A DNA stretch of 34,008 bases from Candidatus Polarisedimenticolaceae bacterium (GTDB taxonomy: Bacteria; Acidobacteriota; Polarisedimenticolia; Polarisedimenticolales; DASRJG01). A program made the position numbers and the translations under genes. Within the stretch, counting starts at the first letter, position 1. Each line of letters opens with the position of its first letter. The DNA lies in assembly GCA_036376135.1 (NCBI GenBank), contig DASVAW010000157.1:1-34008 (forward strand), in the 5' to 3' direction. Below are positions 12,128 to 16,293 of the stretch, in pieces. The notes under the pieces are model-generated. The model had not been told where the DNA came from, did no database searches, and worked only from the letters and a program-made list of their open reading frames with translations.

Positions 12128-12643
12128 CTAGCGCCTCGTCATCCTCACGACGGCCTCCCGCTCGACCCCCGCCTCGAGGGTCACCGCGGCGGGATCGGCC
12201 GGGTCGAACCCCTCCGCCTCGGCCGTGATCCGGACCGCCCCCGGGGGCAGAGACGGGGTGCGCATCCCGGCCCGGTTGAACGGAAGCGGACCGATCTTGC
12301 GCCCCGAGGCATACACCACGGTGACCGTTCCCTTCTCGACCGGGTTCCCCGCCCCGTCCACCACCCGGACGAGGAGGGTCGCCGCCCGATCCAGGACGAT
12401 CGGCGCGGCCTGGGTGACCGCCGCCGACTCGCCGGGGAGGTACCCGGTCTTGACGACACGGACCGCCTCCGCGGCGGAGTCGGGGAGGCGCCAGAAGCCG
12501 TTCGCGTCGGTCACGACGCACAGCAGCGCCCTGCCCTGCGTCGTCAGGCACGCCTCCGCTCCCTCGATCGGGACCCCCTGCCGATCGACGACCGTGCCGG
12601 TCATCGCGAGGATCCCGGCCCCGACCCACATCGATGCGATCAT
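12128..12643 (-). CDS. Carboxypeptidase-regulatory-like (Ig-fold) exported protein
   Basis: This 171-residue protein carries two beta-sandwich repeats of the carboxypeptidase regulatory-like type. The first is TGTVVDRQGVPIEGAEACL...TDANGFWRLP. The second starts at VRVVDGAGNPVEKGTVTV and ends in VTLEAGVEREAVVRM. The hydrophobic N-terminus (MIASMWVGAGILAMTG) could be a short signal or anchor, but lacks the usual positive n-region, so export is uncertain. A GGAGG lies four bases before the ATG at 12643. It is the first gene of the minus-strand CDP-sugar operon and is divergent from the lipoprotein gene, so the 175-base gap to 12819 must contain this operon's promoter. The domain usually binds or scaffolds; no enzyme motif is seen. 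Confidence 0.72.
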   Translation of the reverse strand: MIASMWVGAGILAMTGTVVDRQGVPIEGAEACLTTQGRALLCVVTDANGFWRLPDSAAEAVRVVKTGYLPGESAAVTQAAPIVLDRAATLLVRVVDGAGNPVEKGTVTVVYASGRKIGPLPFNRAGMRTPSLPPGAVRITAEAEGFDPADPAAVTLEAGVEREAVVRMTRR

Positions 12644-12818: not shown

Positions 12819-13418
12819 ATGCGCAAGATGTTGGCCGTGGTTCCCGCTGTGCTGGTGCTCGCGATGATGGTCGGCTGCGCCAAGCCGCCGCAGCCCGCGA
12901 TCGACGCCGCCAATGCCGCGCTGGCGTCTGCCAAGACGGCCGAGGCCGCGGACTACGCTGCGGACTCGCTCAAGGGTGCGGAAGACGCCGTCGCCGCCCT
13001 GCAGACCGAGCTGAAGACGCAGGAAGAGAAGTTCGCCCTGTTCCGCTCCTACAAGAAGGCCGAGGAGCTCGCCGCGTCCGCCAAGGCCGCCGGTGAGAAG
13101 GCTGCCTCGGACGCCGCCGCCGCGAAGGAGGCCGCGAAGAACGCCGCCACCCAGGGTCTCGCCGAGCTGAAGACCGCGCTCGACGAGGCGAAGATGGCTC
13201 TCGACAAGGCGCCGAAGGGCAAGGGGACCCAGGCCGACCTCGAGATGATGAAGAACGACCTCACGGGCGTGGAGTCGGCCGTGGCCGAGGCCGAGAACGC
13301 CCTCAATGCCGGCAAGTACAAGGACGCCCAGGCGAAGATCGACGCCGCCAAGCAGACCGTGGCCAACACCAAGTCGGCCATCGATCAGGCGATCGCCGCC
13401 AAGATGGGCAAGAAGTAA
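12819..13418 (+). CDS. Alpha-helical outer-membrane lipoprotein ending in Lys-Lys (candidate Braun-type lipoprotein)
   Basis: This 199-residue lipoprotein has a signal MRKMLAVVPAVLVLAMMVGC with lipobox VGC and acylated Cys at residue 20; the +2 residue is Ala, consistent with outer-membrane sorting. The mature 180 residues are almost all Ala, Lys, Glu, Asp and Leu, in long amphipathic helices resembling DUF4398-type and Lpp-like coiled coils, with no further Cys. The C-terminus is AAKMGKK. Braun's lipoprotein also ends in Lys, which YkuD L,D-transpeptidases join to peptidoglycan, and two YkuD genes follow here. The ATG at 12819 has AAGGAG nine bases upstream; longer in-frame extensions lack a signal peptide. 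A strong terminator ends the gene. Upstream CTTTCA-17-TACCAT (about 12683-12711) is a weak promoter candidate. Attachment is inferred. Confidence 0.85.
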   Translation: MRKMLAVVPAVLVLAMMVGCAKPPQPAIDAANAALASAKTAEAADYAADSLKGAEDAVAALQTELKTQEEKFALFRSYKKAEELAASAKAAGEKAASDAAAAKEAAKNAATQGLAELKTALDEAKMALDKAPKGKGTQADLEMMKNDLTGVESAVAEAENALNAGKYKDAQAKIDAAKQTVANTKSAIDQAIAAKMGKK

Positions 13419-13439
13419 CCTCGATCGCTCGAACCACGG

Positions 13440-13476
13440 AGGGGCATGGCGCACGGGCGTCATGCCCCTTTGTTTT
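13440..13476 (+). terminator. Rho-independent terminator after the lipoprotein gene
   Basis: A stem of about 13 bp starts with AGGGGCATG and ends with CATGCCCCT; it includes one G-T pair and a four-base loop. It is followed by TTTGTTTT. It lies 22 bases after the lipoprotein stop and 49 bases before the first YkuD gene, suggesting a separate, probably abundant lipoprotein transcript. Confidence 0.88.
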
Positions 13477-13524
13477 GTGCGGCCGCTGGCCCCCTCCCTC
13501 GATCGCCGCTAACTTAAAATCGCG

Positions 13525-14727
13525 ATGATGACCGAGTCCTTCCTCTCGTCGGCCGAACCCGAGCCGCGGCATCGCCGCCGCTGGCTCTGGGTGTCCCTGG
13601 CCATCGCCACCCTCATGCTCGTCACCGCGGCCGTGTGGCCGATCGCCGCGGGACGCACCGATCCGCCGGTCTACGCGCGGGCGGTCGCGGAGAACGCGCT
13701 TCGCGAGGCCCGCCGCCTGGGTGCCCAGCGATGGGCGAACGACGTGCTCGTCGCCGCCGAAGCGCAGTGGCGCGCGGCCTCCGCCGAGTTCCGTCGACAG
13801 GAATCGAAGTGGTTCCCGCCGCTGCGGGACTACCGCGGCGCCCGCGCCGCGCTCGCCGAGGCGGAGAAGAAGTCGATCGCCGCGCGCGACGCCGCCCAGG
13901 TCAACCGCGCCGCCGCGCGCGACGCCGCCCAGGCCGAGCTCGCCCGCGCCGGGGAGATCGTGGAGCTCTCCGCGCGCACCGGCGACGCGGTGCACCTCGT
14001 CCCCTACCACCGCCGGCTGCTGCAGAAGTCGAAGATCCAGATGGCCGAGGCGCGGATCCTCTTCGAGCGCGAGGAGTACGCGACCTCCTCCGAGCGCGCG
14101 CGCGCCGCGGCGGTCACCGCCGACCAGGTGGCGAGCGGCGCGAAGTCGGTGCTCGGCCGCTTCACCGATCCCGGCCTCATCCGCAACTGGCGCAACGACA
14201 TCGAGGAGACGATCGCGGCGTCGCGGCGGTCCGGCTCCCCGGCGATCGTCGTGCTGAAGGAGAACCGCCGCCTCGACCTCTACGACAACGGCCGGCTCGT
14301 GAAGAGCTACCTCGCGGACATGGGGTACCGGTCGTTCAACGACAAGCTCCGCGCCGGGGACGCGGCGACGCCCGAAGGGCGCTACCGCATCACCTCGAAG
14401 CGCGGGACCGGGTCGGCGGCGTATTACAAGGCGTTCGACCTCGATTACCCGAACGCCGCCGACCGCGCGCAATTCGACCGCCTGAAGCGCCAGGGGAAGC
14501 TCCCCCGCGGCGCGAAGCTCGGCGGATCGATCCAGGTGCACGGCGAGGGGGGACGAGGGAAGGACTGGACCCGCGGCTGCGTCGCGGTCTCCAACCGGGA
14601 CATGGACGATCTCTTCCGCCGCGTCGGGATCGGCACTCCCGTGACGATCGTCGGCGGCGACGGGCAGGGGGTCTACGCGAAGCTCGCCCGCCAGGCGGCC
14701 TCGACGACGACCTCGGGGACACGTTGA
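13525..14727 (+). CDS. Membrane-anchored YkuD L,D-transpeptidase with helical N-terminal region
   Basis: In this 400-residue protein one membrane helix (residues about 20-42) follows an Arg-rich cytoplasmic start, giving a type II anchor. Residues about 50-215 are Ala/Arg/Glu-rich helices resembling the neighbouring lipoprotein. Residues about 235-378 form a YkuD domain: IVVLKENRRLDLYDNG is the first strand pair, and the catalytic pair is H339 (VHGEGG) and C352 (TRGCVAV). YkuD enzymes form a thioester on this Cys and make 3-3 peptidoglycan crosslinks or attach lipoproteins. TRGC replaces the commoner SHGC, as in many active homologues. No ribosome site precedes the ATG, and a TAAAAT lies five bases before it, so a leaderless message is possible. 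Its TGA overlaps the next ATG. Confidence 0.88.
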   Translation: MMTESFLSSAEPEPRHRRRWLWVSLAIATLMLVTAAVWPIAAGRTDPPVYARAVAENALREARRLGAQRWANDVLVAAEAQWRAASAEFRRQESKWFPPLRDYRGARAALAEAEKKSIAARDAAQVNRAAARDAAQAELARAGEIVELSARTGDAVHLVPYHRRLLQKSKIQMAEARILFEREEYATSSERARAAAVTADQVASGAKSVLGRFTDPGLIRNWRNDIEETIAASRRSGSPAIVVLKENRRLDLYDNGRLVKSYLADMGYRSFNDKLRAGDAATPEGRYRITSKRGTGSAAYYKAFDLDYPNAADRAQFDRLKRQGKLPRGAKLGGSIQVHGEGGRGKDWTRGCVAVSNRDMDDLFRRVGIGTPVTIVGGDGQGVYAKLARQAASTTTSGTR

Positions 14728-15467
14728 TGGGCGAGCGCAGCGACTACGACCTGCTCCGCTCCCGGCTCCGCGCCGAGACGGACGACACCACGCCCCGAGG
14801 GGACCGTCGCCGGCTCTGGCCCGCGATCGGCGTCGTCCTGACCCTCGTGGCGATCCTCGGGATCGCCTTCGGCCCGGGGACCGGGTACGCCTTCGCGCCG
14901 GTGACCGAGTTCGAGGTGCCGGTGGCGGCGAGCCTCCCCGGCGACGGGGCGGAGCTGCGTCGTCTGCAGGCCAAGCTCGCCAAGGAGAACCGGCAGCTCG
15001 CGGCGACGCTCGCGAAGCTCGAGCCCAAGGGGAACTACCTCGTCATCGACCAGACGCAGAACCGCATCTACCTGATGAACGACGGGAAGGTCGTCCACCA
15101 GGCGGTCTGCTCCGCGGGCTCCGGGATCGTGCTGAAGGACTCCACGCGCGGGCGGAAGTGGGTCTTCGACACCCCGCGCGGCGTCTTCAAGGTCCGCAAC
15201 CGGATCGAGGACCCCGTGTGGCGCAAGCCCGACTGGGCGTTCGTCGAGGAAGGGAAACCGATCCCGCGCAATCCCGCGGACCGCATCGAGGCGGGAACGC
15301 TGGGCGAATACGCCCTCTACCTCGAGGACGGCTACATGATCCACGGGACGCTTTACGAGCGCCTGCTCGGGCGCAGCGTCTCGCACGGCTGCGTGCGCGT
15401 CGGTCGCGACGACCTTCGCGTCTTCTGGAAGGGCACGCAGATCGGAACGCCGGTGTACATCTTCTGA
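14727..15467 (+). CDS. Membrane-anchored YkuD L,D-transpeptidase
   Basis: In this 246-residue protein a short basic N-terminus is followed by one membrane helix (about residues 30-50, IGVVLTLVAILGIAFG). A coiled coil (ELRRLQAKLAKENRQLAATLAK) then leads into a YkuD domain from about residue 92. The catalytic residues are clear: H206 in IHGTLYE and H220-G-C222 in SVSHGCVRV, the canonical SxGC form. It should act in the periplasm on peptidoglycan tetrapeptide stems, as a crosslinker or as the enzyme that attaches the upstream lipoprotein's C-terminal Lys. The ATG shares one base with the stop of the first YkuD gene, and its own stop is shared with the next start, so the three genes are translationally coupled. 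Confidence 0.92.
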   Translation: MGERSDYDLLRSRLRAETDDTTPRGDRRRLWPAIGVVLTLVAILGIAFGPGTGYAFAPVTEFEVPVAASLPGDGAELRRLQAKLAKENRQLAATLAKLEPKGNYLVIDQTQNRIYLMNDGKVVHQAVCSAGSGIVLKDSTRGRKWVFDTPRGVFKVRNRIEDPVWRKPDWAFVEEGKPIPRNPADRIEAGTLGEYALYLEDGYMIHGTLYERLLGRSVSHGCVRVGRDDLRVFWKGTQIGTPVYIF

Positions 15468-16156
15468 TGCGTCCCGCGCTCGCGGCCGTCGCCCTCGCCG
15501 TGGCGCTCCCGGCGCTCGCGCAGAAGCCCGCCGTCCCCTCCAAGGACGACGTCGCGAAGCTGCAGCGGGAGACGCTCCTGCTCCGTCAGCAGGCGGAGCT
15601 CGCGAAGGGGAAGGAGTTCTACCTCCTGCTCGACCCCGCGGCGCAGACGCTCTCGCTCAACCTGCGCGGCGCGACCCTCCAGACCTGGACCGTCGTCGGC
15701 ATCGAGGCCGGCGCCCCGCGCGTCGCGTTCGTGTCGCGCGGGCTTCCGGACGAATGGGAGGGGCGGGTCTGGCAGGAGGGCACGCTCGACCCCGAGCGGC
15801 CTCTCGACCGGTTCGAGCTCGAGGCGCCGCCGGTGACCGCGGAAGGGACCGAGGTGGCGGTGCCGATCCCGCCGACTCCCGAGGAGAAGTACCCGGTCCC
15901 TCCCCGTTACCACATCCGATTCGCCGGCGGCCTGTCGATCGAGGTGATCCCCCCCGGTCGTGCCGAGGAGGCCGGATTCTGGAAGCGGCTGAGTACGGGT
16001 TTCTCGACCTGGTGGCACGACTTCCGGCAGGCCGTGTCGAGCGAGCCCGAGGACAAGCTCCGCCTTCGCCTCACCCTCGGGGCGAAGGAGGCCGACTCCC
16101 TCTACCGCGCGCTTCCCCCGAACACGAAGCTGATGGTGGTGCCCCCGGCCAGCTAG
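15467..16156 (+). CDS. Secreted cysteine-free YkuD-like protein (probable non-catalytic partner)
   Basis: This 229-residue protein has a cleavable signal peptide (MRPALAAVALAVALPALAQ). A short coiled coil (DVAKLQRETLLLRQQAELAK) is followed by YLLLDPAAQTLSLNLRG, which resembles the coiled coil plus first YkuD strands of the preceding gene (YLVIDQTQNRIYLMNDG). The protein has no Cys at all and no HG...GC motif, so it cannot be an L,D-transpeptidase. It may be a degenerate paralogue serving as scaffold, inhibitor or substrate guide. A Pro-rich linker (about residues 135-147) and an amphipathic Trp-rich segment (GFSTWWHDF) precede a second beta unit. Its TAG is part of the CTAG at the edge of palindrome copy 2. 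Confidence 0.78.
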   Translation: MRPALAAVALAVALPALAQKPAVPSKDDVAKLQRETLLLRQQAELAKGKEFYLLLDPAAQTLSLNLRGATLQTWTVVGIEAGAPRVAFVSRGLPDEWEGRVWQEGTLDPERPLDRFELEAPPVTAEGTEVAVPIPPTPEEKYPVPPRYHIRFAGGLSIEVIPPGRAEEAGFWKRLSTGFSTWWHDFRQAVSSEPEDKLRLRLTLGAKEADSLYRALPPNTKLMVVPPAS

Positions 16157-16293
16157 AAAAATAGGGACAGTCCCTCTTTACGAAAATGGGGACAGCAACC
16201 TATTTCCCCGGACCCGAAGACACCGGCTACGGCTCCAGGGAAATAGGTTGCTGTCCCCATTTTCGTAAAGAGGGACTGTCGCTATTTTTCTAG
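16153..16293. repeat. REP-like palindromic element, copy 2 (composite, longest)
   Basis: This 141-bp inverted repeat has arms of about 57 bp, beginning and ending with CTAG. Each arm contains two related units: an outer one (AAATAGGGACAGTCCCTC) and an inner one carrying the common core (GGGGACAGCAACCTATTT). Only one mismatch is visible in the outer unit (GGGACTGTCGC on the right side). The apex is a GC-rich loop with GGACCCG, also found in copies 1 and 4 in related form. It lies between convergent genes, and the terminal CTAG provides the TAG stop of both the secreted YkuD-like gene and nuoI. It could also act as a bidirectional terminator. Confidence 0.88.

Follow-up and report, generated by a model that had tools for sequence, protein, structure and literature searches.

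A lipoprotein–YkuD gene cassette of Acidobacteriota as a candidate analogue of the Braun lipoprotein system

The 34,008-nucleotide contig DASVAW010000157.1 of Candidatus Polarisedimenticolaceae bacterium (Acidobacteriota; GenBank assembly GCA_036376135.1), analyzed here at its full length (the window), contains consecutive genes for a helical lipoprotein (LP), two YkuD-domain proteins (YkuD1 and YkuD2), and a secreted protein (ORF4). This arrangement raises the question of whether LP is a tether between the outer membrane and peptidoglycan, linked covalently as Braun's lipoprotein (Lpp) is, and, if so, whether it belongs to the Lpp family. Proteobacteria are, to our knowledge, essentially the only bacteria with known covalent outer-membrane tethers. 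By analogy, the cassette most likely works like the Lpp system yet lies outside the Lpp family. As to the roles of its parts, our comparisons make it somewhat probable that YkuD2 links LP to the wall and YkuD1 frees it, in a tether system analogous to that of Lpp and built on an unrelated lipoprotein.

Gene order and co-occurrence of the cassette

Of 297 genomes searched at the level of order, class, and phylum, 67 contain a YkuD1 relative. LP lies directly upstream of YkuD1 in all 32 loci examined (Acidobacteriota and one Bacteroidota metagenome-assembled genome, MAG), and YkuD2 directly downstream in 30 of them; of the remaining two loci, one is cut by the contig end (L046), and the other (L057) has a second YkuD gene approximately 2.4 kb downstream. 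The same gene order is seen in further families, and the order LP–YkuD1–YkuD2–ORF4 is kept across the phylum, ORF4 following YkuD2 in 39 of the 45 loci with enough downstream sequence. The Bacteroidota locus, from a Prolixibacteraceae MAG, contains LP, YkuD1, and YkuD2; ORF4 was not found there. Its GC content is 39%, compared to 72% in the window, hence it is not an obvious contamination from a window-like organism.

Among the 41 genomes of the class, LP and YkuD genes occur together in 24, LP alone in none, YkuD alone in two (one weak, one a fragment), and neither in 15 (Fisher p 2e-9, which ignores phylogeny; both states are found inside family f6). One genome scored as LP-positive (G011) has the YkuD pair, the LP recovered from it being an unlinked paralogue only. 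Exactly two YkuD genes are present in 15 of the 24 LP genomes, and YkuD1 and YkuD2 are the only YkuD genes of the window genome (4.4 Mb, 97.6% complete); in much of the class, the cassette supplies the only YkuD enzymes. Many Acidobacteriota of other classes carry YkuD genes but lack the cassette, so this exclusivity holds for the class and not for the phylum. The Lpp family, PF04728, has no match in LP or in any of the 41 genomes (the Escherichia coli control was positive), in agreement with the lack of visible Lpp similarity remarked on before.

Gene neighborhoods can persist even if the products do not interact directly, and LP could in principle be an envelope lipoprotein with no tie to the peptidoglycan-editing enzymes beyond an inherited neighborhood. 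Given the phylum-wide gene order, the presence of LP–YkuD1–YkuD2 in the low-GC Bacteroidota MAG, the joint loss of LP and YkuD inside the class, and the homology between LP and the stalk of YkuD1 (see below), we regard this as highly improbable. The linkage (32 of 32 loci) and the co-occurrence, which a sequence-only reading of the window had named as a check, support the proposal of that reading that this is a dedicated, separately evolved lipoprotein/YkuD system analogous to Lpp. No description of the cassette was found in the open-access literature.

Two types of YkuD enzymes

Both YkuD proteins match PF03734 well above the cut-off (8e-19 for YkuD2) with the catalytic Cys intact, as expected for the two membrane-anchored YkuD enzymes recognized earlier. 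They differ in the residue at position Cys+2, where DpaA-like proteins are reported to have Ala or Asn, and transpeptidases Arg (Winkle et al., PMC8263019). YkuD2 has Arg here in 31 of 31 sequences, whereas YkuD1 has Ala in 36 of 38, and Ser and Gly in one each. Comparison with E. coli YkuD proteins follows the same division: the YkuD2 profile matches LdtB (3e-16) and LdtA (6e-15), and does not match DpaA; the YkuD1 profile matches DpaA best (1.4e-11), and then LdtA (2e-5). YkuD1 and DpaA form a clade with support 100/99 in a tree that has E. coli references only and in which DpaA is a long branch. A fold search with the YkuD1 model ranks 8IKR, the crystal structure of DpaA, first, and DpaA is also the top profile match. 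The position of DpaA Lys83, essential for binding of meso-diaminopimelate (PMC10653827), is occupied by Lys in 38 of 38 YkuD1 proteins (K274 in the window), and that of Tyr109 (Y300) by Tyr in 32, Phe in five, and Trp in one. By these sequence features, YkuD2 is a transpeptidase-type enzyme, and YkuD1 is of the detaching, DpaA-like type and not of the ligase type. The earlier description of both enzymes as ligases is thus kept as a proposal for YkuD2 and dropped for YkuD1. DpaA detaches Braun's lipoprotein, and a corresponding action of YkuD1 on LP is what we propose.

Winkle et al. found DpaA-like enzymes in Acidobacteria and Bacteroidetes lacking Lpp, for which they could suggest only "a different purpose", and proposed a carboxypeptidase role for DpaA homologues in such species (PMC8263019). 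Accordingly, YkuD1 might be an L,D-carboxypeptidase similar to Csd6 and Pgp2 that makes tripeptide stems, with YkuD2 cross-linking or attaching and LP acting as a structural partner that is not detached. DpaA shares a structural group with Csd6 and Pgp2, both of which are among the Protein Data Bank (PDB) sequence matches of YkuD1. However, the aromatic D-Ala pocket is not kept, the Trp position of carboxypeptidases being Glu in 36 of 38 YkuD1 proteins (PMC10653827), and DpaA itself is the best match by both fold and profile, which makes this explanation quite improbable. If the proposed release of LP by YkuD1 is true, LP is a substrate of DpaA-like enzymes in phyla without Lpp; as the product of a neighboring gene, it is a concrete candidate for that role.

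The enzyme and its presumed substrate are themselves related, which the sequence-only reading did not mention. Profile comparison (hhalign) aligns LP with the helical stalk of YkuD1 over 172 columns at E 3e-21. The LP hidden Markov model (HMM) scores real YkuD1 stalks with a median of 43 bits, reversed stalks with at most 1.9, and shuffled stalks with at most 5.9; these controls rule out alanine-rich composition as the source of the match. The LP and YkuD1 models have the same helices, with YkuD1 offset by 24–25 residues through the third helix; past it, the last two helices of the YkuD1 model are shorter. About a dozen of the 38 aligned YkuD1 proteins are lipoproteins themselves, with a Cys that aligns with the one of LP, and so are the YkuD1 proteins of several further families. 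Hence, YkuD1 looks like a copy of LP in which a DpaA-type domain has taken the place of the LP tail. Across lineages, the YkuD1 anchor alternates between a transmembrane (TM) helix and a lipoprotein Cys at the LP-Cys position (e.g., L019, L024, L028, L031; L102, L105, L112).

Anchor, shape, and basic tail of the lipoprotein

The window LP has a lipobox, MVGC, with Ala at +2 and a CAKPPQ motif. The lipobox ends at Cys20, the sole Cys of LP; the mature protein has 180 residues and ends in MGKK, in line with its first description. Among 39 aligned LP members (two misplaced lipoboxes corrected), the +2 residue is Ala, Gly, or Gln. The window protein thus has the lipobox and the absence of Asp at +2 that mark outer-membrane lipoproteins, a rule taken from E. 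coli that may not apply to this phylum, and its lipid anchor is probably situated in the outer membrane.

The AlphaFold2 model of LP (pLDDT 90) is almost wholly helical, as had been read from the sequence, and consists of helices 25–69, 79–130, and 138–198 with short breaks between them. The sole good PDB matches in a fold search are designed single-chain antiparallel three-helix bundles; comparison of the LP profile with sequences of solved structures yielded chance-like matches only. In this up–down–up topology, the lipidated N-terminus is at one end of LP and the tail at the other. With its 52 residues, the modeled middle helix would span approximately 8 nm; Lpp keeps the outer membrane approximately 8.5 nm from the wall (PMC12729407). 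Three Lpp chains sum to 174 residues, and one LP has 180. We infer that LP may be a single-chain counterpart of the Lpp trimer, of similar length and not a longer tether. A helix three times the length of Lpp, as suggested by the sequence-only reading, or a wider periplasm is disfavored by the modeled three-helix bundle.

LP is followed by its own strong terminator (Table 1), as claimed before, and a strict terminator is found within 130 nt 3' of LP at 23 of 39 relatives' loci, compared to 8% of dinucleotide shuffles and 0 of 39 stretches inside the LP gene. A terminator kept at this place would put LP in excess over the enzymes, which favors a structural or substrate role. A sigma-70 promoter scan found no promoter.

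The tail is conserved as a basic, Lys-rich segment. Lys or Arg is present among the last three residues in 60 of 60 distinct LPs, and Lys within the last six in 56 of 60; the Lys share is 31% in the last eight residues against 12% in the body, and acidic residues are almost gone (2.7% against 17%).

Several observations weigh against a covalent bond through Lys, or against parts of the proposed system. Conservation of the terminal Lys among homologues, the other named check, fails: the last residue is Lys in 31 of 60 LPs, Arg in 20, Ala in four, Ser in three, and His and Asp in one each, and Lys and Arg are swapped inside one genus (KVKK/KVKR). An invariant terminal Lys as the link site is thereby ruled out. 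In two LPs, the nearest Lys is 9–10 residues before the C-terminus. In family f29 (L074 and L075, from genomes G062 and G086), the tail is QQRRRR with no Lys nearby, the +2 residue is Asp, and LP is followed by one transpeptidase-type YkuD, the sole YkuD of the genome, with no YkuD1; for this lineage at least, no other observation speaks as strongly against a Lys bond as this all-Arg tail. In the tree mentioned above, YkuD2 and E. coli LdtA–C do not form a group, so the YkuD2 sequence does not separate protein attachment from 3-3 cross-linking. At the positions of the DpaA-specific cleft residues Gln86, Arg108, Lys130, and Tyr131, YkuD1 mostly has other residues (the Arg108 position has Arg or Lys in 20 of 38 proteins and Ala in the window protein), and as several of these residues differ, "DpaA-type" is the best label for it. 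Finally, codon usage of LP gives no clear sign of high expression, with elongation factors as the reference (the draft genome yielded no ribosomal protein L14).

Lack of a conserved terminal Lys does not refute a tether, because known proteins attach through internal Lys: two Lpp-unrelated proteins are linked to peptidoglycan via non-terminal residues, Coxiella burnetii LimB via Lys21 and Legionella pneumophila Lpg1810 via Lys in KTPAPPEKDIT (PMC11841132, PMC12729407). Substitutions are also tolerated in the Lpp box (PMC12274547). As a separate point, the LP/YkuD pair of family f29 is a natural test of the need for Lys.

The same tail data bear on binding by charge. LP might bind the anionic wall electrostatically and serve as a scaffold or activator of peptidoglycan-editing YkuD enzymes, as LpoA and LpoB do for penicillin-binding proteins; the YkuDs would then perform 3-3 cross-linking or trimming and not attach LP, and the YkuD1 stalk would be a docking surface. 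The always basic tail with interchangeable Lys and Arg, even inside one genus, and the all-Arg tail of family f29, where a YkuD is still kept, agree with this, and the homology of LP and the stalk makes hetero-oligomers plausible. On the other hand, the terminator after LP in many genomes suggests an excess of LP, which would not be expected of a stoichiometric activator; the tail is specifically enriched in Lys; and one of the enzymes is of a type known to cut protein–peptidoglycan bonds. Overall, we consider binding by charge unlikely, though less so than the carboxypeptidase explanation.

Under the favored reading of attachment and release, the N-terminal lipid of LP would be anchored, probably in the outer membrane; LP would fold into an antiparallel three-helix rod of approximately 8–9 nm, its basic tail reaching the peptidoglycan; YkuD2 would join a tail Lys to meso-diaminopimelate of the peptidoglycan stem; YkuD1, on its LP-paralogous stalk, would reach the same layer and hydrolyze the LP–peptidoglycan bond, making the tether reversible; and the terminator would separate LP from the enzymes, so that LP would be made in excess. 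The wider claim of a covalent, reversible, Lpp-unrelated tether that is widespread in Acidobacteriota and present in Bacteroidota, with the detaching enzyme a paralogue of the tether and the rod serving as a ruler, is put forward tentatively, as somewhat short of probable. The cassette suggests that reversible covalent tethering may have evolved more than once, a three-helix rod replacing the Lpp trimer at similar length.

LP relatives also occur outside the cassette. A second LP paralogue, approximately 38% identical and with the tail RRVS, is encoded on another contig of the same genome (L073:1866-2459, G000:C167); it is unlinked to YkuD, the cassette pair being the only YkuD genes of the genome, and similar paralogues are present in G001 and G003. 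In genome G245, an LP-like helical lipoprotein stretch is fused to a TonB C-terminal domain (L118:1205-1864), another protein on such a stalk.

Comparison with known systems and other features of the locus

The cassette shares with the Lpp system (LdtA/LdtB/LdtC and DpaA) a small, helical lipoprotein whose C-terminus is basic and contains Lys, and the presence of both transpeptidase-type and DpaA-type YkuD enzymes, whose action on LP is proposed here. It differs in that the lipoproteins have no meaningful sequence similarity; Lpp is a trimer of 58-residue helices, whereas LP is modeled as a single-chain antiparallel three-helix rod of 180 mature residues; the terminal Lys, present in the window LP, is not conserved across the family; and the cassette genes are all together, with a lipoprotein paralogue carried by the DpaA-type enzyme. 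The NCBIfam alanine-zipper model gives weak matches only, in three of 39 LP relatives. Compared with DpaA/YafK (LdtF; 8IKR), YkuD1 shares the YkuD fold, Ala at Cys+2, the Lys83 and Tyr109 positions, and the absence of the carboxypeptidase Trp, and differs in being membrane-anchored, by a TM helix or lipid, and in the LP-like stalk of approximately 160 residues. LimB and Lpg1810 differ from LP in fold and in range (Gammaproteobacteria or wider Proteobacteria); no enzyme that attaches LimB or Lpg1810 is known (PMC12729407).

By sequence comparison, LP borders DUF4398 (PF14346), a family of helical lipoproteins matched by 14 of 39 LPs at E<=0.01 (best 4e-10) and by five of 38 YkuD1 stalks (best 2.5e-6). 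The window LP and YkuD1 do not match it, and one distant relative (L120) exceeds the gathering cut-off; cassette LPs differ from DUF4398 by three long helices and the basic tail. No functional study of DUF4398 was found in the open-access literature. OmpA-type domains are encoded in the window genome as well; non-covalent tethers thus probably exist alongside the cassette, as they do in E. coli.

ORF4 has a signal peptide and, in its family, conserved Arg, Trp, and Pro positions. It had been described as a secreted YkuD-like protein; secretion agrees with the signal peptide, and the YkuD part is not upheld, as ORF4 has no Pfam match and its match to the YkuD profile has 20% probability over 38 columns only. 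ORF4 as an inactive YkuD is likewise unsupported.

Table 1. Features of the cassette in the window (positions of the 34,008-nt stretch).
Feature	Coordinates	Strand	Description and basis
LP lipoprotein gene, proposed outer-membrane-to-peptidoglycan tether	12819..13418	+	199 aa; signal peptide, lipobox, conserved family (60 distinct cassette members)
LP basic C-terminal tail, residues 191-199 AIAAKMGKK, proposed peptidoglycan attachment point	13389..13415	+	Lys/Arg and Lys statistics of the family
Intrinsic terminator between LP and YkuD1	13436..13479	+	Hairpin and U-run, z -5.4 vs shuffles
YkuD1	13525..14727	+	TM anchor, LP-homologous helical stalk, DpaA-type YkuD domain
YkuD1 helical stalk, residues 49-211	13669..14157	+	Homologous to mature LP (hhalign, HMM controls, models)
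YkuD1 catalytic Cys352	14578-14580	+	Ala at +2
YkuD2	14727..15467	+	N-terminal membrane anchor, transpeptidase-type YkuD domain; proposed attaching enzyme
YkuD2 catalytic Cys222, motif SHGCVR	15390-15392	+	
ORF4	15467..16156	+	Conserved secreted cassette protein, no Pfam family

On the 5' side of LP, a divergent gene (12128-12643, minus strand) encodes a secreted carboxypeptidase-regulatory-like (PF13620) protein. Just 3' of ORF4, at positions 16153-16293, between ORF4 and a convergent Fe-S gene, there is a near-perfect inverted repeat with 67-nt arms (94% complementary) and a 7-nt gap, which looks like a palindromic mobile repeat or a strong bidirectional terminator.

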